In this document: piece by piece, positions 29,419 through 42,332 of the stretch
How positions within the stretch are numbered: the stretch's first letter is position 1
How the letters are laid out: every line of letters begins with the position of its first letter
The notes under the pieces: generated by a model
Told to the model about the DNA's origin: nothing
Databases searched by the model: none
The model's input: the letters and a program-made list of their open reading frames with translations, nothing else
Program-made: the position numbers and the translations under genes
NCBI GenBank assembly: GCA_021405325.1
Contig: QWII01000005.1
Coordinates: forward strand, 1 to 64,000
From: Caldilinea sp. CFX5
GTDB taxonomy: Bacteria; Chloroflexota; Anaerolineae; Caldilineales; Caldilineaceae
DNA length: 64,000 bases
Direction of reading: 5' to 3'

Positions 29419-29580
29419 GTTATCATTTGTCATAATGGCGATCAATCAGTAGACCCCGTATCACTGATACGGCAATCGCCGGGTCTTAGTTATCATTTGT
29501 CATAATGGCGATCAATCAGTAGACCGCACGGACTCGCCTACCGCCGGTCCGTGACTGGCGGCAAGCGTTGCGGTCTACTG
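29419..29580. repeat. 37-base direct repeat with inverted repeat
   Basis: The stretch starting GTTATCATTTGTCATAATGG and ending AGTAGACC occurs at 29419-29455 and again at 29489-29525. The second copy runs into an inverted repeat with arms CAGTAGACCGCA and TGCGGTCTACTG (to about 29580) enclosing GCCGGTCCGTGACTGGC, a variant of the word at 5085. No coding potential is seen. Confidence 0.85.
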
Positions 29581-30086: not shown

Positions 30087-33000
30087 GCCAGAGAGAATAT
30101 CAACCCAGTCGCGGGATTGAAACTGGAGCTAAAGAGAAAAAGTACACTTTGCATGAAGCCAGAGAGAATATCAACCCAGTCGCGGGATTGAAACTGCTTT
30201 TTGCTCTGATAATGCCCAGTCCCTCAACCAGCCAGAGAGAATATCAACCCAGTCGCGGGATTGAAACACCTTTCCCACCCCTCACATACAAGCGACCATT
30301 ATGCCAGAGAGAATATCAACCCAGTCGCGGGATTGAAACGTCCCCAAAACCTGATAGCTCTAACAATCGACGATGCCAGAGAGAATATCAACCCAGTCGC
30401 GGGATTGAAACTTTTCTGCCTCAGTAGCAGTTTCATCGTGAGTTTCGCCAGAGAGAATATCAACCCAGTCGCGGGATTGAAACTCTCTAACAATTTTAGT
30501 TAGAGGTAAGTCCGATACGCCAGAGAGAATATCAACCCAGTCGCGGGATTGAAACTCAGCAATGTTACAACATGTTCCAGTTCATCCTTGTGGCCAGAGA
30601 GAATATCAACCCAGTCGCGGGATTGAAACTGGAACACCCTACTTGGGAAGAGTTGTTGCAAGCTCAGCCAGAGAGAATATCAACCCAGTCGCGGGATTGA
30701 AACAAATCTGCAAACCTCTGTTTGAAAATAACTCCCTCATGCCAGAGAGAATATCAACCCAGTCGCGGGATTGAAACTACCAGTGCTAATATCACTGTTG
30801 ATGGTTCTGATGCCAGAGAGAATATCAACCCAGTCGCGGGATTGAAACTTGTATAGCTCAAATTCTGCCGAATACAAGGGAAGCCAGAGAGAATATCAAC
30901 CCAGTCGCGGGATTGAAACTTGGCTTTCCCTTGGTTGCAGAGGTAATTTTAGCATGCCAGAGAGAATATCAACCCAGTCGCGGGATTGAAACAAATACTG
31001 CCAGAGGCTGGTAAACACATAGCCAAGCCAGAGAGAATATCAACCCAGTCGCGGGATTGAAACCTAAAATCAACGAAAGAGTGTGAGGTGGTACTAAGCC
31101 AGAGAGAATATCAACCCAGTCGCGGGATTGAAACCGCGTTAGCAGCCAGCGCCTGTGCCGCACGCTGTGCGCCAGAGAGAATATCAACCCAGTCGCGGGA
31201 TTGAAACACTCATTGGTGGGGATAACCTTTCCACTTTTAGGCAGCCAGAGAGAATATCAACCCAGTCGCGGGATTGAAACCTGTTAGGGCAACCTGTGGG
31301 TACTCAAGCTCTGTTGGGGCCAGAGAGAATATCAACCCAGTCGCGGGATTGAAACGTAATTTTCGCTGGCGCCCATGACCAATAACTTGTTGCCAGAGAG
31401 AATATCAACCCAGTCGCGGGATTGAAACTTAGCGCTTGCCCGCCAGTGGCACGACGGACGAACTGGCCAGAGAGAATATCAACCCAGTCGCGGGATTGAA
31501 ACTTTTCGCCCTATTATACCAGAGATTGGAGCCTCTGTAGCCAGAGAGAATATCAACCCAGTCGCGGGATTGAAACCGGCTGGTACTACTGCCATTGTTC
31601 TGCCAGGCGCTGCCAGAGAGAATATCAACCCAGTCGCGGGATTGAAACTTTGAATTTTTCGGAAACTTGCATAAAACGTTGGGCGCCAGAGAGAATATCA
31701 ACCCAGTCGCGGGATTGAAACTGTTAGCTCCTATCGACATCCTAAGTTATTAAGTGGCCAGAGAGAATATCAACCCAGTCGCGGGATTGAAACGACGCTC
31801 TGCCCATCATGTCACCAACTCGCTGAGGCGCCAGAGAGAATATCAACCCAGTCGCGGGATTGAAACACACCAAAACCCAGGACATTGCAAGCACTGGCAG
31901 ACGGCCAGAGAGAATATCAACCCAGTCGCGGGATTGAAACCGCCACGCCCAGCACGCCTACGAGAAGTGCAAGCGTGCCAGAGAGAATATCAACCCAGTC
32001 GCGGGATTGAAACTGATGTCGCTGATGCGCCCTTGCCGCACATTGTAGCCAGAGAGAATATCAACCCAGTCGCGGGATTGAAACCACAATGCCGATCACG
32101 ACCGCAACGGACAGCAGAAGCCAGAGAGAATATCAACCCAGTCGCGGGATTGAAACAACAACATGCAATACGGAGCTTATCGCAAGGCGCGCCAGAGAGA
32201 ATATCAACCCAGTCGCGGGATTGAAACAAGATAATTGACAATAATGCTGGCGATGCTTATTGCCAGAGAGAATATCAACCCAGTCGCGGGATTGAAACAA
32301 TGCTGCCACGAGCATCAGCCACAGCAGCGCCACTGCCAGAGAGAATATCAACCCAGTCGCGGGATTGAAACATGCCGGTACTCAGGATGAACAGCGCCGC
32401 TTTTGGCCAGAGAGAATATCAACCCAGTCGCGGGATTGAAACCAAACATGACACCCCTTCTCTCCTTCTCTCAATTCAAAGCCAGAGAGAATATCAACCC
32501 AGTCGCGGGATTGAAACATCACCTTGTCGGCCATCGGTTGCGCGCAAGCTATGCCAGAGAGAATATCAACCCAGTCGCGGGATTGAAACTTCCGTTTTGT
32601 CTTTTCTCCCCGAATCTTCTACCCTGCCAGAGAGAATATCAACCCAGTCGCGGGATTGAAACGACGAGATTGAATACCTCATCCTCCTCGACGGCTCGCC
32701 AGAGAGAATATCAACCCAGTCGCGGGATTGAAACGCTTCAAGCGCCGAATATGCAGGAAATCAGTTTTGAGCCAGAGAGAATATCAACCCAGTCGCGGGA
32801 TTGAAACTGTAACCGCCGATGAACTTCTTAATGATTCGTGATGCCAGAGAGAATATCAACCCAGTCGCGGGATTGAAACAATATGCTTGGCGAGATTGAT
32901 ACTGCCCAAGCAGGCCAGAGAGAATATCAACCCAGTCGCGGGATTGAAACTGATGAAGTGTGCATGTGGGATGGAGTTTGCCCCCGGGCCAGAGAGAATA

Positions 33001-33088
33001 TCAACCCAGTCGCGGGATTGAAACCCCTCCTTTCAGCAGTGTGTGAGAGCCGACGCCAAAGGGCCAGAGAGAATATCAACCCAGTCGC
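30087..33088 (+). CRISPR. CRISPR array, 41 intact repeats plus one truncated
   Basis: By reading, 41 copies of a 37-base repeat (starts GCCAGAGAGAATATCAACC, ends GTCGCGGGATTGAAAC) with 41 different spacers of 34-38 bases; the first repeat is 30087-30123 and the last intact one 32988-33024. A 42nd copy at 33063-33088 keeps only the first 26 bases. Intact copies appear identical. The ATTGAAAC end is typical of class 1 (type I or III) handles, and transcription is expected on the plus strand. No cas gene is found in the 30 kb on either side, so the array either is orphan or depends on a distant locus. No spacer was traced to a source. Confidence 0.98.
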
Positions 33089-33281
33089 TTTGGTACAGTT
33101 GCTGCTGGAAAAAGCACGAAGCACACCTTATCCGCGTGCGTTCCTGCGCGTCTTCCCGGATAATCACATTGCGCTTGCTTGCTATCGACGGGCCGGCTTT
33201 ACGCCGGTTCGTCCAAACGAACAGCAGGCTTTTAACCGCGGCCAGTCAGTTGAGTACGTCTGGATGCGCTATGTTCTATAG
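33089..33281 (+). pseudogene. 3' fragment of a GNAT acetyltransferase gene
   Basis: Directly after the truncated repeat, the reading frame gives about 63 residues ending VWMRYVL and a stop. It includes FLRVFPDNHIALACYRRAGF, the typical late GNAT motif with asparagine and the Y-x-x-x-G-F turn. The N-terminal two thirds, including the acetyl-CoA loop, are missing, and the frame is continuous with the repeat, so the gene was cut where the array ends. Probably not functional. Confidence 0.75.
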
Positions 33282-34212: not shown

Positions 34213-37200
34213 TCACGGCACCGGAATATCACCCGGCAGACCGAAGGGGAGGTTGATCTGGGCATCATCCGAACTTTGGCGAATCGACCACGAGAGATTG
34301 CCCTCTTCGATGCGCACAATCGTCAGATCGGCCTTGCCGTCGCCATCATAATCGATGGGGGGAATGGCCGTGTCGCCGGGCAGGCTGCCCCAGTAGCCGG
34401 TCTGTTCGCTGTCACCGGCGCTGCTCTTTAACCAGCGCCAGCCGCCGTCGCTGGGGCGGTACATGGCAATATCCGTCCGCCCGTCGCCGTCATAATCGCC
34501 AGGGACGGGAACATCACCCTCCTGACCGTGCTTCTTCACCTTGAGGCCAGCTCTGGTTTGGGAGATGTGCCACTCGTTGGTGCTGGGGCGGTAGATGGCC
34601 GAATCAGCCTTGCCATCGCCATCATAGTCGGCATAGACGGGGATGTCGCCCTGCTGGCCCCATTGGAAGGCGGTGATGCCGATAACACCGGCCGGCCAGT
34701 AGGCCGTGCCGTTGCTGGGTCGCCAGACGGCGATGTCGGTGCGCTTGTCGCCATTGTGATCCTTGGCGATGGGAATGTCGCCGGCTTGCCCCAAAACCAC
34801 TACCTTGACGCCATCCCGGCTTTGGGCAATCCACCACTCGCCGGTGCTGGGCCGGAAGATGGCGGCGTCAGGACGCTTATCACCATCATAATCACCGGGG
34901 ACCGGAATATCGCCGGCGACGCCCCACTGTTGGCTGCGCGTGGCCCCTGTGCCGGCTTCCTGCCAATACCATGTCGCATTTGAAGGGCGATAGACGGCGA
35001 AGCCGGTCTTACCAGTGGTGGGGAAACCGCCGGTCGGGTTGTTCGGATTGTTGTTCAGATCGCCCTCGCAATGGCTGAGGAGCGCTTCGGTAAACGGCTG
35101 GGTGGCCCAATCGGCGACTGTCCACTCTTTGTTAACCGGCCAACTATCGGAGAGCGGATTGTAGCGCGCTCGGGCAAAGATGTAGAAGCGCACGCCAAAG
35201 GGTTGCACGGCCATATCGACATTCAGACACCAGCGCCGGTTGCTATTGTTCGACAGATATTGCACCGAGCCTTGAATCGGGAAGGTGGTCTTGAGCAGGT
35301 CGCCGCGCAGAGCCACGCCACCCTGGGCCAGCAGCGCATTGACATACGCCTCGCCGACAATGGTCAGCGAAATCCCCGGCGTGAGCCGCACCCGCAGCGC
35401 TCGTGTCCCGTCGCCACAGACATTGGTCGCCCCGGCATCCAGGGTGAGATAGAGTTGCGCGCCGGCCGAGACGCCAAAGGTGACCGGGACGACCCCCAGG
35501 ACAAAGATGGTGACGCTTTTTTCAAAAACCGGGATGTGCCGGTCGAGCAGGTTGAGCGGGCCAATCTCCTGGTTGCAACTCACAAAGTAGTTCTGGTTGA
35601 GCAGGTTTAGTTGGTCATTCATCATGCGCAATTCGACGGCAATGTTATAGCCATTAGCGCCGTTGTAGCGGGCATTGGCGACTGCGGTCAGGATATTGGC
35701 CTCCGGCAAAACTTCCCAGACATAAGCATCGACCTTTTGCATCGCCTGCACATAGATGTTCCCGCCGGCAAAGTCCGAGTCAGGCGGGGTCGCCACGGTG
35801 AGCGAACCAGGGGTGCGCACGCCGACATATTCATTGCCAAAGTTTTTGCCCCAATTTTTGCTGAGCTGGCCATTGATCGCTTGCACGCTGGCGGCCTGGA
35901 GCGGCTGACCTTCCGCCTGGTCGTAATCGTCATCCCAGCTATCCAGATAGGTATCGACATAATCGTTCAAGATAGCTGCGGCGGCGTCACTCAGACCACT
36001 CTCCTCATCCAGTTGGCGGGCGAGCAGCACATCGGCGATGACATTGCGCAGATCTAAGGCGCGGTTCGCGTCTTGCAGGCCGGCAATCAGCAGATCCTCG
36101 GCTTCCTGACCGGGGATGCCGCGCAAGGCGCTGTAGGCGGCCACATTCAATTGCCAAATGTCGAACAGGTCGGTCACCTTCTTCCCGTCGATCTCAATGG
36201 TATCGCTGAGGTACGGTTTGATGGCGCTGACCGAGCGGGCATCGCCGATATTGCCCAGCGTTTCCAGACAGATCAGCGCATCCTGGACATTTTTAACATT
36301 GTGCAAATCGGCTTCATAGTGGTCGATCACCTGGCTTTCCAGCCCCGGATTGTCCTCGTCAAATTGATCGGCCAGGCCACCCAGCGCCGCCGAGGCAACC
36401 GGGGAAAGGGGTTCGCTCTTGTTAAAGCCGATCTCTGTCAAGGTTTGCAGCGTGGTCGTCACCGGGGCGGCGAGCGCCGCCATGTTGAGCAACACCTGCT
36501 GTTGCGTGGTGATCGTCGCCGAGGCGGCAAGATTGGCCGCAGCAATCGTCGAGTTGTTAAAGAGGCCATTCAAATAGGATTGGGCCTGCGGTGTGCCGAT
36601 TGCGCCCAGCAGATCGACATAGAGATTGGCCAGCGCCTGGTTGTTGATCACCTGTTGTAACCGTTGGCCAAGCTTATCGACCACCACTGTCCCCGTGTCG
36701 GCGCGGTGTAGCGTCAAAATGTACATGAACAACTGGCTCTTGTCCGCCGCCGCTTCCAGGTCGGTCAGCACCTTGTTGAGATCAATGGTCGCCAGGTCAA
36801 TGCGTTTGTCGTTTGCGTAATCGCCCTCTAACTTGCCGCCGAGGGTATCGGCTGCATAAAGCGCAGCCGCCGCGGCCGCTTCGACGGCGGCTTCGGCTGG
36901 CGCGTTGGTGACGCTCTGCAAGGTCAACGAACCAGCAGTCTTGATGGCGGACCAGACCGAGAGGCCATCCGCACCGGTGACGCCCGTGTTGGCCGGCATC
37001 TTTTTGCCATCATTGCTCAGATGCTTTTCAACAACCTGCACCGACTCTAACACCTGGTGCTGTGCGCCGAGTAAGAGGTTGAGTTGGGTGTTCATTTGCA
37101 GACTGCTGATCTGATCACCCAGGGCAAGCAACTGCTGAAAATCGCCGGTGCTGATGGTTTTGGTAATAGCCAGACCGGCCGCAGTGTCAGTCAGTTGATA

Positions 37201-38001
37201 GTGGGCATTGTACGAACCTTGACCACCCGCTTCTTGGGCGACATAGCTGTTGCTGTCACTGCGCAACGTGACTTGAAGAAAGTTGATAACGCCTTTCTGG
37301 ATATTGGTCACGGCACTGGCAACGGTGGGCTGACTGGTCACTTCCACCACGGCGCCATTGGCTGCTTGTTTGAAGCGGATCGGCGTTGTCAACTGGGCCA
37401 GGAACTGGGCGTCATCAACCACGATCTGTTGCCCATTGTCGAGGGTGTTGCACAGGAAGGGCGAACGGAGCGCCAGTTGCGCCTCAATCGCACCGTCGGC
37501 GGCTTTGGACAAGACGGTGAGATCGGCATAGCTGTTGATGCGCGTCAACGTACCAGCAGCACTCCGCAGATCGGTCTGCTGATTTTGGCCGTTGCTCTCC
37601 GTTTCAATGGTGTAGTCGTAGAGGTAGGTGTAGACCTTGCCGACTTGATAGTTGAAGCTGCGGATGGTGGCGGCCGCCGGGTCATTGGTGGCCGCCGGGG
37701 TGTCAGCGCCGACCAACGCCGCGAGCGACGTTTTGGCTTTGGCAATCAGGGGCAGAAAGAGCGTGTTGGGGCCGGTGGCGCCACGATTGGGGGCGGCGCA
37801 GACGCCGGTGGTTGGCGTCTGTTGGCTCAACGGGGCGGCGTAGGCTGCCGGTGGGAGCGCGCCCAGGAGGAGGGCAATAACCACCAACAGGGCAAGACTT
37901 TTCTCGACAGTGCGCCGGAAGCGCGGGAAGTGGGTTTGCATGTAGCCGGACATTGATTGCCTCACGCTTCGTAAGGGTTGGGTTGGGATATTGGGTTTCA
38001 T
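34213..38001 (-). CDS. Secreted vitellogenin/LLTP-like protein with FG-GAP repeats
   Basis: 1262 residues from ATG 38001 (AGGAG upstream). A signal peptide lies around residues 32-56. Residues about 115-290 match the N-sheet of vitellogenins: YTYLYDYTIET, TPIRFKQAANGAVVEV, NIQKGVINFLQVTLRS, YVAQEAGGQGSYNAHYQL and ITKTIST occur in the same order as in animal vitellogenin. Residues about 400-720 are helical with LGAIGTPQAQSYL and LETLGNIGDARSVSAIKPYL, like the helical domain of lipid transfer proteins. A beta-rich part with several cysteines follows (740-1010). The last 250 residues have five FG-GAP-like loops (DYDGDGKAD type, calcium binding). Likely an extracellular lipid- or ligand-binding protein; function unproven. 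Confidence 0.8.
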   Translation of the reverse strand: MKPNIPTQPLRSVRQSMSGYMQTHFPRFRRTVEKSLALLVVIALLLGALPPAAYAAPLSQQTPTTGVCAAPNRGATGPNTLFLPLIAKAKTSLAALVGADTPAATNDPAAATIRSFNYQVGKVYTYLYDYTIETESNGQNQQTDLRSAAGTLTRINSYADLTVLSKAADGAIEAQLALRSPFLCNTLDNGQQIVVDDAQFLAQLTTPIRFKQAANGAVVEVTSQPTVASAVTNIQKGVINFLQVTLRSDSNSYVAQEAGGQGSYNAHYQLTDTAAGLAITKTISTGDFQQLLALGDQISSLQMNTQLNLLLGAQHQVLESVQVVEKHLSNDGKKMPANTGVTGADGLSVWSAIKTAGSLTLQSVTNAPAEAAVEAAAAAALYAADTLGGKLEGDYANDKRIDLATIDLNKVLTDLEAAADKSQLFMYILTLHRADTGTVVVDKLGQRLQQVINNQALANLYVDLLGAIGTPQAQSYLNGLFNNSTIAAANLAASATITTQQQVLLNMAALAAPVTTTLQTLTEIGFNKSEPLSPVASAALGGLADQFDEDNPGLESQVIDHYEADLHNVKNVQDALICLETLGNIGDARSVSAIKPYLSDTIEIDGKKVTDLFDIWQLNVAAYSALRGIPGQEAEDLLIAGLQDANRALDLRNVIADVLLARQLDEESGLSDAAAAILNDYVDTYLDSWDDDYDQAEGQPLQAASVQAINGQLSKNWGKNFGNEYVGVRTPGSLTVATPPDSDFAGGNIYVQAMQKVDAYVWEVLPEANILTAVANARYNGANGYNIAVELRMMNDQLNLLNQNYFVSCNQEIGPLNLLDRHIPVFEKSVTIFVLGVVPVTFGVSAGAQLYLTLDAGATNVCGDGTRALRVRLTPGISLTIVGEAYVNALLAQGGVALRGDLLKTTFPIQGSVQYLSNNSNRRWCLNVDMAVQPFGVRFYIFARARYNPLSDSWPVNKEWTVADWATQPFTEALLSHCEGDLNNNPNNPTGGFPTTGKTGFAVYRPSNATWYWQEAGTGATRSQQWGVAGDIPVPGDYDGDKRPDAAIFRPSTGEWWIAQSRDGVKVVVLGQAGDIPIAKDHNGDKRTDIAVWRPSNGTAYWPAGVIGITAFQWGQQGDIPVYADYDGDGKADSAIYRPSTNEWHISQTRAGLKVKKHGQEGDVPVPGDYDGDGRTDIAMYRPSDGGWRWLKSSAGDSEQTGYWGSLPGDTAIPPIDYDGDGKADLTIVRIEEGNLSWSIRQSSDDAQINLPFGLPGDIPVP

Positions 38002-38097
38002 CATATTCTCCTGGCTCAAGTTGTTAATGATGGTGCAAAGCGTTTTACTGGTGCAAGTTATGACGCTGTCATACCATAGGCTTTTCTTTGTTTGCTC

Positions 38098-38310
38098 TTA
38101 TTGCCCCCTTTCAGCGGCGCCCGGTTCTTGATCGTCAGGCGTCGCCAACCATGTTGTGTGGAGAAATAGGTACAAGTCATCAATGGTGACAAAGTGGTGC
38201 TGATCAGCCGGATCATGGACATTCACCAAGGAGGCCCTGACGGTCGTCTTGTTGGTGGTTTGCCACAGGCGCAGCAAGTAGGAACGGTACGTTGGTTGGT
38301 TGGTGATCAC
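38098..38310 (-). CDS. Small conserved protein of unknown function
   Basis: 70 residues starting with GTG at 38310, preceded by AAAGGAA. The pattern SYLLRLWQTTN...TVRASLVNVHD...HHFVTIDDLYLFLHTTW is like small Chloroflexi proteins in which a beta hairpin (RLWQ.., RASL..) precedes a short helix. No activity is known to me. It lies upstream of, and on the same strand as, the vitellogenin-like gene, 97 bases away, and may be transcribed with it. Confidence 0.65.
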   Translation of the reverse strand: MITNQPTYRSYLLRLWQTTNKTTVRASLVNVHDPADQHHFVTIDDLYLFLHTTWLATPDDQEPGAAERGQ

Positions 38311-38340
38311 AAGTGTTCCTTTCTGGCTGACGTTTCATTG

Positions 38341-38636
38341 TTGACTTACTTCCAGTCTACTGGCGCCCATTACTAAGCCATTACTCAATCATTACTGGCT
38401 TAACCAGTAATGATGTAATGAGCGGCCGGAAGGTGCGGTTGTTCTGGGGCGTTCACCTGTTTGTATGTGTAATAAAAAAGTAAATCTTGCTCTGTTTTAC
38501 AGATCGGAGTTGCCAACTTGCTGTGACTTGTGGAATAATCTCTTCTATTGAAAGCCCCACCGTTGACCTTCTTCCAGCATACGGGCGCCATGCCATTACT
38601 GAATCATTCGTCACAGATCGAAAGTTGCAGTAATGG
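38341..38636. promoter_or_regulatory. Divergent regulatory region with CATTACTGG palindromes
   Basis: This is the AT-richer gap between the small minus-strand gene and the SARP gene (38311-38876, no gene seen). CATTACTGG-N5-CCAGTAATG stands at 38390-38412; CCATTACTG (38593-38601) and CAGTAATGG (38628-38636) form a second, wider palindrome. A longer degenerate direct repeat (38341-38393 and 38563-38608) surrounds them. These are likely regulator binding sites. Confidence 0.55.
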
Positions 38637-38781
38637 CGGGTTGCACTTACAGACATTGGCAAATAACAATACACCGATTGGCCGATGTATAAACCGTGGA
38701 ACGTGAGAATATCGTTACGATTCATGTTTGATGCGGTACGCTTGCAAATCGTTACCCTTGTAATTCTTTGGGAAATCGAGG

Positions 38782-38862
38782 GGTTAGGTAGTTGGTTGGT
38801 TAGTTGGTTGGTTTCTCACTGAACTAACCAACTAACCAACCAACTAACCAACCAACTAACCA
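38782..38862. repeat. Inverted repeat of TTGGTTAG words just before the SARP gene
   Basis: GGTTAGGTAGTTGGTTGG on the left is mirrored by repeated AACCAACTAACC words on the right up to 38862, 14 bases before the ATG. It would hide or lie next to the ribosome binding site in mRNA. Confidence 0.88.
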
Positions 38863-38876
38863 AATCTGTGAGAGCA

Positions 38877-41800
38877 ATGGCAACATTACAAATTCGCCTT
38901 TTTGGCGTCGGTCAACTCCGTGACGGCGCCGGTAAAGTAGTTCCTGTGCGTTCGCGCAAAGAGTTGGCGGCGCTTGCTTATCTCCTGGTGGAAGGCAGCC
39001 AATCCCACAGCCGCGAGGTGCTGCAAAATCTCTTTTGGCCTGATCTGGATATGGAGAGCGGGCGCAACAACCTGCGCGTGACCCTGGCCCATCTTCAAGG
39101 GATCATGCCGGCTGGACAGAATGGCGCGGTCAATGCAGAAATAGTCCGGTTGTTCCATGCCAGCCGCAGCGAAGTGCAATTCAATCCTGCCAGCAATGCC
39201 TGGGTGGATGTGAGCGAATTTCAGCGCCTGATCGATGAGACCCAGCACCATGACCATACCAGTCGCAGCGCCTGCCCCCACTGCTACCAGTTGTTACACA
39301 CCGCCGTTGCCCTCTATGCGGCTGAGTTTTTGTCCGGTTTCGCGCTGGCGGACTGTCCGGCTTTTGAGGAGTGGCTCTTTCTGCAGCGCGAACGCCAACA
39401 TCTGTTGGCACTCAAGGCGTATCAGGATCTGAGCGCCTACGCCGAACAGCAGGGTGAACTGGAAACGGCGCTCACCTTTGTCCAACAGCAGATCGCCATC
39501 GATCCCTTGCGCGAAGCGGCTTATCGCCAGCAGATGTACATCCTGGCACGCCAGGGGGAGCGTAGTCTGGCGTTGGCCGCCTTTGAGCGCTGTCGGGCCG
39601 TCATCAGCGATGAGTTGGGCATCGACCCGGAGCCGGAAACGCTCTTGCTCCACCAACAAATTCTCTCTGACCAGATCCTGCCCCTGCCCAAGCCTGCGCC
39701 AACGGTCGTCCCCGACCAAGCGGAAGCGCCGTTCGTCCAATCTACCCCAACGTCGGCAACGCTACCCAGCACTGTTGGGGCAGAAACCAGGGGCGCCCGT
39801 CACAATCTTCCACAACAATTGACCGCATTTATCGGGCGGGAGCCAGAGCTAGCCCAGTTGCAAGAACGGCTACAGGCAAGCGATTCCCGTCTCATTTCGC
39901 TGGTGGGGCCGGGTGGCATTGGCAAGACCCGCCTGGCTATCCAAGTCGGTGGCGCCAGCCAACACCTTTTTCCCGATGGCGTCTTCTTTGTGGCGCTGGC
40001 TGGTGTACAAAGCGTGGAAGCGATCCCGGCGACGATCATGGCGGCCATGAATGCTACGTTGGGGGCCGGCGGCGCTTCGCCAACCCAACAACTCTTACAG
40101 GTGTTGGCCCCGCAAAAGGCGCTCCTGCTCATCGATAATCTGGAACACTTGATCGATGGCGTTGATCTGCTGTTGGCGCTTTTGCAGGCCGCGCCGGCGG
40201 TGACGCTGTTGGTGACGACACGGGAACAACTCAACTGCCAAGCCGAGGATATCTTTTTGCTCAGTGGGCTGGCCACGCCCAAAGCGAGTGCGCTGGCTGA
40301 AGCCAGCCACTATGCGGCGGTGCGCCTCTTCTGTGAGCGCGCCTATCGGCTGCACAAGAGCTTTAAACTTACGGCGGACAATTGTCCGCCGGTCGTCAAG
40401 ATCTGCCAACTGGTGGAAGGGATGCCCCTGGCGATTGAGTTGGCAACCACCTGGCTCGGCGATTTTGATTGCGCTGCTTTGGCAGCGGCCATTGCCAAGA
40501 ACATGTCGATCCTGGCAACGACCCAGCGCGACCTGCCGCTCCGCCACCGTAGTATGCAGGCAGTCTTCGACTACTCGTGGCAGATGCTCACCGCCCGCGA
40601 GCAACAGCTTCTCAGCCAGCTTGCCTTCTGCCAAGGGCCTTTTTCGGCCCACATTGCCGGGCAGCTTGCCGGCGCCTCGCTGGTCGATCTGACCGGCCTG
40701 CGTTACAAATCGCTGCTGCGGATTGTCGAGGCCGGCTATTATGATCTGCATCCATTAATTCGCACCTTTGCCCTGGCCCGACTGGCAGCGGCCAGCGCGT
40801 CACAAGTGGCAACGCGCCTGGCAACACTTTACATGCAGCAGGTGGCGGAGCAAGGGCTGGCGCTCGATGGGGCAACGCCACAAGCGGCGCTCCACGCCAT
40901 TGAGCGCGAGTTGGATAATGTGCAGCAAGCCTGGCAATGGGCAATGGAACAGGAGCGCACCGATCTCCTGGCGCAAGGCGTCACAGGGCTGGGCAGTTAT
41001 TATGCGTCTAGTGGCCGCAACAGCGAATGCGCCGAGCGCTTTGTGCCGCTGGCCCGGCAGTTAATCGAACAAGAGGATAGCGCCGGCGCAATGGGTAAGT
41101 TGCTCTGTGTGCGGCTGCTCGATAAAGCGTGCCATTCCTTGATCTGGCTGGGCAAATTGGCCGATGCCCAGCACTGGGCGCAAACCATGCTTGGCGTGGC
41201 CGCCGGTCTAGGCAACCAGGAGTACGTGGCGCGGGCGTTGGTCCACTGGGGCAAGACCGTGGATGAACATGCCAAGCCCGCCGCGGCTGTGGAAAAGTAT
41301 GAGGAAGCGTTGTCGTTGGCGCGCCAACTGCGGCTGTCCCCCCTGATCGGCCAGATTTTGATTGAGATGAGCCACCCCTTACGCGATCTGGATCGAGCCA
41401 GCGCGGCGGACGCGGCGTTGACCGAGAGTTTGGCGATTCAGCGGAGCCTGGGCAACCGGCTGGCCGAACAGCGCTGCTTGCTCTATCTGTCGGTGGGCCG
41501 GCGGGAAGCAAGTGATTTCCAGGCCGACCGCGATTATCTGATGGCGGCAATGGCGTTGCAACCTTTGACCGGCAGCCGCCATGTGGAGACGCGCTTGCTC
41601 GACGCCTTGGGGATCAATTACGGTCTGGTCGGCAACTATGCGACGGCCGTGGAATATCATGAGGCGTCGCGACGCATTGCCCAGGAGATTCGTCAGCCGG
41701 TTCAGCAATGTCACACCTTGCGTCATCTCTGTACGGCCCAGCGCAAATTGGGCAATCTGGCGCAGGCCGAGGAATGTGGGCTGGCGGCGCTTCATCTGGC

Positions 41801-42332
41801 GCTGGCGAACAACCTGCCCGCTGATATGACCCTGGCCCGCTTATATTTGGGCTATGTTTGGTTGGCCACGGGCGACTTGACCGCGGCCGCCAACGTCTTC
41901 CAACTGGCCTATGACAGTTGGCGCGCCCAGCAGCTTACCAACTTGAGCCAGGAAGCGCTGGTCGGGTTGGCCACAGTCGATCTGCGCCAGGGCAATCCCG
42001 CCCGCGCCGCTGAACGGATCGAACCCTTTGTGCCGACCCTGCTGCACCATGTTCCTGTGGGTGTGCGCGAATCCTACGAAATGCACCTGGCCTGCTACGA
42101 CATCTTGGCCGCCGTCGGCGATCATCGCGCCGGCGCTTTGGTGATAACGGCCTACAATCAATTACAGGCCAACATCAACAAAGTGATGGACAACGATCTG
42201 CTGCGCTGCTTCTGGGAGGCGCCGGCCCATCGCCGCATTCGGGCCTTATGGCAGCAGTTGCCGTCAGCGGATATGGAATGTACCCCCAAGCTATATCACG
42301 GCACATCGACAGCTACGGTAGGTGGCCTATAA
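38877..42332 (+). CDS. SARP-type regulator with BTAD, NB-ARC-like ATPase and TPR region
   Basis: 1151 residues (GTG 38868 is an alternative start). The N-terminal winged-helix part (LQIRLFGVGQL...LAALAYLL...LFWPDLDMESGRNNLR) is followed by a bacterial transcriptional activation domain (about 110-265, with the conserved AYRQQMYILARQGERSLAL). The STAND-type ATPase begins at about 310 with FIGREPELAQL; the P-loop GPGGIGKT is at 344-351 and the Walker B LLLIDNLEHL about 70 residues later. The C-terminal 500 residues consist of TPR-like helical repeats. Such proteins act as signal-gated transcription activators. It is divergent from the small gene and the vitellogenin-like gene, its likely targets by position. 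Confidence 0.9.
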   Translation: MATLQIRLFGVGQLRDGAGKVVPVRSRKELAALAYLLVEGSQSHSREVLQNLFWPDLDMESGRNNLRVTLAHLQGIMPAGQNGAVNAEIVRLFHASRSEVQFNPASNAWVDVSEFQRLIDETQHHDHTSRSACPHCYQLLHTAVALYAAEFLSGFALADCPAFEEWLFLQRERQHLLALKAYQDLSAYAEQQGELETALTFVQQQIAIDPLREAAYRQQMYILARQGERSLALAAFERCRAVISDELGIDPEPETLLLHQQILSDQILPLPKPAPTVVPDQAEAPFVQSTPTSATLPSTVGAETRGARHNLPQQLTAFIGREPELAQLQERLQASDSRLISLVGPGGIGKTRLAIQVGGASQHLFPDGVFFVALAGVQSVEAIPATIMAAMNATLGAGGASPTQQLLQVLAPQKALLLIDNLEHLIDGVDLLLALLQAAPAVTLLVTTREQLNCQAEDIFLLSGLATPKASALAEASHYAAVRLFCERAYRLHKSFKLTADNCPPVVKICQLVEGMPLAIELATTWLGDFDCAALAAAIAKNMSILATTQRDLPLRHRSMQAVFDYSWQMLTAREQQLLSQLAFCQGPFSAHIAGQLAGASLVDLTGLRYKSLLRIVEAGYYDLHPLIRTFALARLAAASASQVATRLATLYMQQVAEQGLALDGATPQAALHAIERELDNVQQAWQWAMEQERTDLLAQGVTGLGSYYASSGRNSECAERFVPLARQLIEQEDSAGAMGKLLCVRLLDKACHSLIWLGKLADAQHWAQTMLGVAAGLGNQEYVARALVHWGKTVDEHAKPAAAVEKYEEALSLARQLRLSPLIGQILIEMSHPLRDLDRASAADAALTESLAIQRSLGNRLAEQRCLLYLSVGRREASDFQADRDYLMAAMALQPLTGSRHVETRLLDALGINYGLVGNYATAVEYHEASRRIAQEIRQPVQQCHTLRHLCTAQRKLGNLAQAEECGLAALHLALANNLPADMTLARLYLGYVWLATGDLTAAANVFQLAYDSWRAQQLTNLSQEALVGLATVDLRQGNPARAAERIEPFVPTLLHHVPVGVRESYEMHLACYDILAAVGDHRAGALVITAYNQLQANINKVMDNDLLRCFWEAPAHRRIRALWQQLPSADMECTPKLYHGTSTATVGGL

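Follow-up and report, generated by a model that had tools for sequence, protein, structure and literature searches.

Introduction

Large lipid transfer proteins (LLTPs) are presented, in the parts of the literature available to us, as part of the yolk and blood lipoprotein machinery of animals. According to the accessible portion of one account (PMC7444587), the A and C sheets form the sandwich that is their lipid site, and a putative second phospholipid site lies between the N and A sheets of lipovitellin. The available sections of another (PMC3337244) divide MTP into residues 22-297, 298-603 and 604-894, assign lipid binding and transfer to the last of these parts, and attribute phospholipid transfer without triglyceride transfer to Drosophila MTP.

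Bacterial LLTPs find no mention in the portions of PMC3538542, PMC1783640, PMC4219131, PMC2556348 and PMC9012834 available to us, and no paper with a bacterial vitellogenin, MTP or LLTP as its subject, judged by title or start of abstract, was among the matches listed in searches, mostly of open-access papers and excluding bioRxiv, on these protein families in bacteria, on their origin and on Herpetosiphon predation. Automatic database labels exist (PF01347 on relatives of the protein described here, and 'Lipid transport protein domain' on Haur_5045), so bacterial LLTP sequences were already known, though as far as these searches reach they had not been described. What is new here is that the LLTP superfamily has a bacterial branch, which carries C-terminal modules of its own.

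Results

Gene and domain organization

The gene lies in a 64,000-nucleotide stretch of Caldilinea sp. CFX5 DNA (the window), on the minus strand at 34213..38001 with the stop codon counted in. The open reading frame called in the first-pass annotation is real: a single frame runs from the ATG at 38001 to the stop at 34213-34215 and encodes 1262 aa. Residues 1-55 (37837..38001, minus strand) form a signal-like N-terminus, basic and then hydrophobic, which by eye has the pattern of exported proteins, with cleavage judged by eye to fall between PPAAYA and APL. A candidate second start is the ATG at residue 17, where the related protein P0002 begins. Just past the signal-like stretch, Cys68, Arg73 and Phe-Leu-Pro 82-84 (window 37750-37800) are invariant in 8 aligned rows.

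Four parts follow, all on the minus strand: an N-sheet domain (residues 112-372; 36886..37668), delimited by Pfam, an N-sheet profile and the predicted structure; a helical domain (residues 373-690; 35932..36885), delimited by sequence profile and predicted structure; a C-terminal beta domain (residues 712-985; 35047..35868), a predicted lipid sandwich drawn from the structure model only; and an FG-GAP module (residues about 991-1262; 34216..35031), whose start was set by eye. The five-loop FG-GAP end noticed at first reading is present, both as D-x-[DN]-G-D loops seen by eye and as matches to Pfam FG-GAP families.

Homology to large lipid transfer proteins

The first-pass annotation had likened the protein to vitellogenin on the strength of short blocks, and these are found at residues 206-283 (TPIRF, NGAV, NIQKGVINFLQVT, YVAQEAGGQG, NAHY and ITKT); in a pairwise comparison the window protein reads YVAQEAGGQGSYNAHY where a fish vitellogenin-like protein reads YELQEAGAQGVCKTLY. 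The resemblance is above chance, with Pfam Vitellogenin_N (PF01347) scoring 67.6 bits (1.1e-18) against a curated cut-off of 24. When the lone window sequence was compared with PDB sequences by phmmer, lamprey lipovitellin was the best match (9.4e-5), and a profile of 20 relatives matched human MTP twice (3.3e-10 and 4.3e-10) and lipovitellin at 1.4e-25, the latter over its residues 75-505. The helical domain is thereby aligned by sequence up to lipovitellin residue 505. All nine relatives scanned match PF01347 at E<=1 (best 2.5e-23), and P0008, P0021 and P0022 reach 51.6-55.0 bits. The N-sheet and helical domains are homologous to those of animal LLTPs. By sequence the C-terminal beta domain gave no credible LLTP match (best E 1.1), and NCBIfam gave no full-family match above cut-off for P0001, P0017, P0014, P0008 or P0022. 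A phycocyanin match to residues 616-687 was weak and was set aside.

We considered whether the protein might combine HEAT-like repeats with an unrelated beta domain, its likeness to LLTPs being superficial. False PF01347 matches do arise from HEAT proteins, at about 450-590 of the profile; one such protein, P0024, proved on full reading to be NACHT-plus-HEAT and was rejected as an LLTP. Designed alphaRep proteins also score with the 20-row profile, through repeats only. Against this, a 13-row profile confined to the N-sheet, a region without HEAT-like repeats, returned five sequences at E<=1: lipovitellin (4.3e-12) and MTP twice (4.1e-6), followed by a vitellogenin from honey bee at 0.11 and one phage protein at 0.71. 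Because the N-sheet by itself finds lipovitellin and MTP, an explanation by repeats is largely refuted, and the structure comparison described below helps to make it scarcely credible.

The remark in the earlier reading that the N-sheet cysteines of animals are mostly absent also holds. The window protein has 7 Cys (68, 184, 578, 809, 862, 925 and 978), and in the alignment the G-x-C block of the N-sheet has its Cys in all 5 animal rows and in none of the 16 bacterial ones. No VWD domain was among the four Pfam families matched by the window protein, P0001, at E<=10.

Predicted structure

Structure models were built from 20 aligned rows (pLDDT 77.5 and 72.4); lipovitellin was probably part of the AlphaFold2 training set. 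The model shows N-sheet, helical and beta domains in LLTP order, with the N-sheet barrel present and with 17 helices in the helical region that had been placed after the N-sheet from the letters. LLTP structures score Z values far above those of HEAT rows, and human MTP is the best or second-best structural match across the whole model. The predicted C-terminal beta domain aligns, as a predicted fold only, to the lipid-binding half of MTP, through MTP's end. Alternation of hydrophobic and polar faces is clear in two long strands of this domain (838-859, 3.1/-1.3; 866-888, 2.2/-1.2) and weaker or not clear in 9 of the 11 strands listed, shorter ones among them. With profile and structure comparisons both carried out, the LLTP reading stood. 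Sequence and predicted shape together support the window protein as a secreted bacterial member of the LLTP superfamily, the whole LLTP-like fold being a prediction.

Distribution of relatives

The protein searches scored only ~8000 candidates each, and their lists show presence, not absence. The first gave at least 8 bacterial-type entries, the window protein included, plus a fish vitellogenin-like protein; the second added P0011 and another fish protein among the matches listed; and the third, run with a diverse alignment, listed a single match, H. aurantiacus P0025, close relatives existing in the same database. P0003, P0005, P0006, P0009 and P0011 were taken as bacterial from similarity.

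For the genome searches, a genome was counted only when its match included the N-sheet part (PF01347 profile about 1-250); many other PF01347 matches cover only the repeat-rich end of the profile (about 370-590) and were left out. N-sheet matches were found in 7 of 400 genomes drawn from the phylum of G001 (7 of 17 at E<=0.001 kept), 4 of 396 drawn from its class (4 of 9 kept) and 2 of 56 from its order (2 of 3 kept), at the same threshold. The order of G002 contributed 4 of 46 genomes, with all 4 at E<=0.001 kept, and the class of G112 (H. aurantiacus DSM 785) 6 of 158, with 6 of 16 kept. Asking after taxonomic spread, as the first-pass annotation had proposed, thus yielded bacterial LLTPs in 12 genomes from the Chloroflexota searches (G001, G002, G045, G072, G080, G112, G262, G283, G449, G476, G480 and G483). 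G001 has two copies and G112 three, and 14 control genomes gave no LLTP match. Across this scope of Chloroflexota and 14 controls, the family is sporadic in Chloroflexota. When 84,980 species genomes were scanned with sequence patterns, 2 loci were found; these patterns are specific to close relatives and missed 10 of the 12 positive genomes.

The three H. aurantiacus paralogues (L028, L029, L030, L037) include a copy on plasmid pHAU01 that lies amid integrase and transposase genes.

Phylogeny

A tree of the N-sheet and helical domains was built from 16 bacterial and 5 animal rows (lamprey and two fish vitellogenins, and fragments of human MTP and apoB). The bacterial rows split into two clades, that of the window (12 rows, 96/97) and a Herpetosiphon type (4 rows, 93/97); the five animal rows come together at 65/36 only, the MTP row being a fragment that covers 48% of the columns. 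The LLTP of one locus from the class of H. aurantiacus (L033 in G262) belongs to the window's clade, perhaps by transfer inside the phylum.

Recent capture of the gene from an animal vitellogenin would fit both the sporadic occurrence of the family and the higher profile scores for lipovitellin than for MTP. The depth of the two bacterial clades argues against it, as does the AU test, which rejects a grouping of bacteria with fish vitellogenins (0.0019) or with lamprey vitellogenin (0.0012), although not with all three vitellogenins (0.127) or with apoB (0.133). Under this tree model, with animal rows from vertebrates only, borrowing from inside the vertebrate vitellogenins sampled is rejected, and we regard recent capture as very improbable.

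The neighbouring regulator and other genes

A BTAD/NB-ARC/TPR regulator of 1154 aa (38868..42332, plus strand), identified by regulator searches and placed in a tree, is divergent from the LLTP gene, and the stretch between them (38002..38867, no strand) is likely regulatory. At 6 of 16 loci a large BTAD regulator sits next to the LLTP gene, divergently in the window and G002 and convergently in G480, G483, G449 and the second copy of G001. By blastp with four regulators, none was beside the LLTP gene in L001, L048, L033 or seven Herpetosiphon-type loci (for L026, one flank only). After near-identical pairs were merged, the regulator stands beside the LLTP gene in 4 of 7 lineages of the window's clade. 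BTAD genes number 15-44 per genome in six searched genomes of that clade and 9 in H. aurantiacus, giving a chance of ~0.5-1.3% per locus for such a neighbour; at 1.27%, the probability is 9e-7 for 4 of 7 lineages and 8e-6 for 4 of 11, values that assume one gene per 1150 bases and independent lineages and that are optimistic and after the fact, because the neighbour was seen first and BTAD tested afterwards.

In a regulator tree that included 19 control BTAD proteins from 20 regions (L061 yielded none), the regulators beside the LLTP genes of the window, G002, G001 and G449 group with one other G002 protein at 98/96. Those of G480 and G483 are placed elsewhere, and the neighbours are not one clade; they need 3 changes on the tree, as few as in 9 of 500 shuffles. 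We read this linkage as a tendency of the BTAD regulator to travel with the LLTP gene, which it probably controls. A paralogue with 54% identity to the G002 neighbour regulator lies on the same contig, ~60 kb off (L071, G002:C76:76500-85000).

None of the other window genes scanned points to lipid transport: a cyclase, DUF218, PLP enzyme, methyltransferase and two AI-2E transporters, together with an enolase, M16 peptidase, ketoacyl-ACP synthase III and an unmatched ORF. The window also holds a CRISPR-like array from 30087 to about 33100 (37-nt repeat, at least 41 copies, spacing 71-75), and no cas genes were found among the 10 window ORFs scanned. An ORF at 32883-33281 runs from the last repeats into a tail that looks acetyltransferase-like by eye and has no Pfam match at 1e-6. 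A second identical 37-nt pair (29419-29455 and 29489-29525, 70 bases apart) differs from the array repeat and is perhaps the remnant of a second array.

Variable C-terminal modules

FG-GAP is the C-terminal module of the window protein and of P0003-P0006, and P0008 (G002) has a ricin-type lectin at its end (Pfam, 2.4e-23). P0007 and P0023 have a short tail after the core, and P0009, P0011, P0020, P0026-P0028 and the Herpetosiphon-type proteins stop, by eye, at or near its end. Since the module varies or is absent where the core stays, the core is the family, FG-GAP is one among several variable C-terminal modules, and the module may be a tether or aiming part. In P0021 (L034:15232-18627) and P0022 (L035:9320-12709), the last ~150 residues are Cys/Gly-rich, with no Pfam match at 0.001.

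These modules also bear on whether the protein carries lipid at all. An old LLTP fold might serve as the stalk of a surface adhesin or sheath scaffold, with FG-GAP or ricin modules at its end, a last domain lacking sequence conservation with animal LLTPs, and no lipid genes among the scanned neighbours. Many relatives, however, have no module at all, and every module-less relative keeps the last domain, with its predicted MTP-like fold, which leads us to consider a stalk without lipid carriage unlikely.

Discussion

We think it likely that the window protein is a secreted bacterial LLTP with a lipid-carrying sandwich, tethered by its C-terminal module. After export, the N-sheet and helical domain would hold the C-terminal beta sandwich, presumed to be hydrophobic inside, in the manner of MTP and lipovitellin. 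This sandwich would take up lipid and carry it through water outside the cell; phospholipid is favoured as the cargo because Drosophila MTP moves phospholipid without transferring triglyceride. The module, which is FG-GAP here and which in relatives is a ricin lectin, a stretch without a match or absent, would tether the carrier to sheath, polysaccharide or prey, and the BTAD regulator would control the gene. Against a lipid carrier count the last domain's lack of an LLTP sequence match, the weak or unclear two-faced pattern in most of its strands, the missing animal N-sheet cysteines and the scanned neighbours, which do not point to lipid transport. The small number of rows behind the models and the probable presence of lipovitellin in the AlphaFold2 training set also weigh against it. 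According to the available part of PMC6210107, Herpetosiphonales are monoderms inside a sheath, so that an exported carrier would meet the outside directly. As to direction, uptake from prey or surroundings is our first guess, a tentative one that may well be wrong; export to the sheath is the alternative.

A rather speculative account of origins, which we hold with more doubt than belief, is that LLTPs predate animals and arose in Chloroflexota-like bacteria, and that MTP, vitellogenin and apoB descend from an MTP-sized secreted lipid shuttle that had a regulator of its own and a surface module that could be exchanged. A compact branch in bacteria, present in three copies in one culturable species, would give the superfamily an outgroup. 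The bacterial core is small enough to serve as a minimal system in which to study the opening of the lipid sandwich, and it may be an instance of lipid being carried by a protein outside the cell of a monoderm bacterium.

Among known systems, apoB-100 (9bd1, 9bd8, 9ea7) has about four times the length and is wrapped around a particle, and lipovitellin and vitellogenin (lamprey 1lsh, honey bee 9enr) have a longer core than the bacterial proteins. The fish vitellogenin-like protein carries VWD (PF00094), whereas the window core is followed only by the FG-GAP module. P0004 of Caldilinea sp. CFX5 has 59% identity and the same FG-GAP module, and is annotated only as a hypothetical protein. Haur_5045 of H. 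aurantiacus plasmid pHAU01 (ABX07675.1) is a bacterial LLTP of the other clade with the same predicted fold, about 22% identity to the window core (row P0017, 21%) and no FG-GAP module. The large subunit of human MTP (PDB 6i7s, 8eoj) is of similar length to the bacterial core and has the same three parts in the same order, at 14% identity to the window protein in the structural alignment. It differs in that it is retained in the ER, complexed with protein disulfide isomerase, whereas the window protein is predicted to be exported, and in having the G-x-C block Cys that the window protein lacks. This refines the original likening to vitellogenin, since the core resembles MTP more than vitellogenin in its length and its parts.
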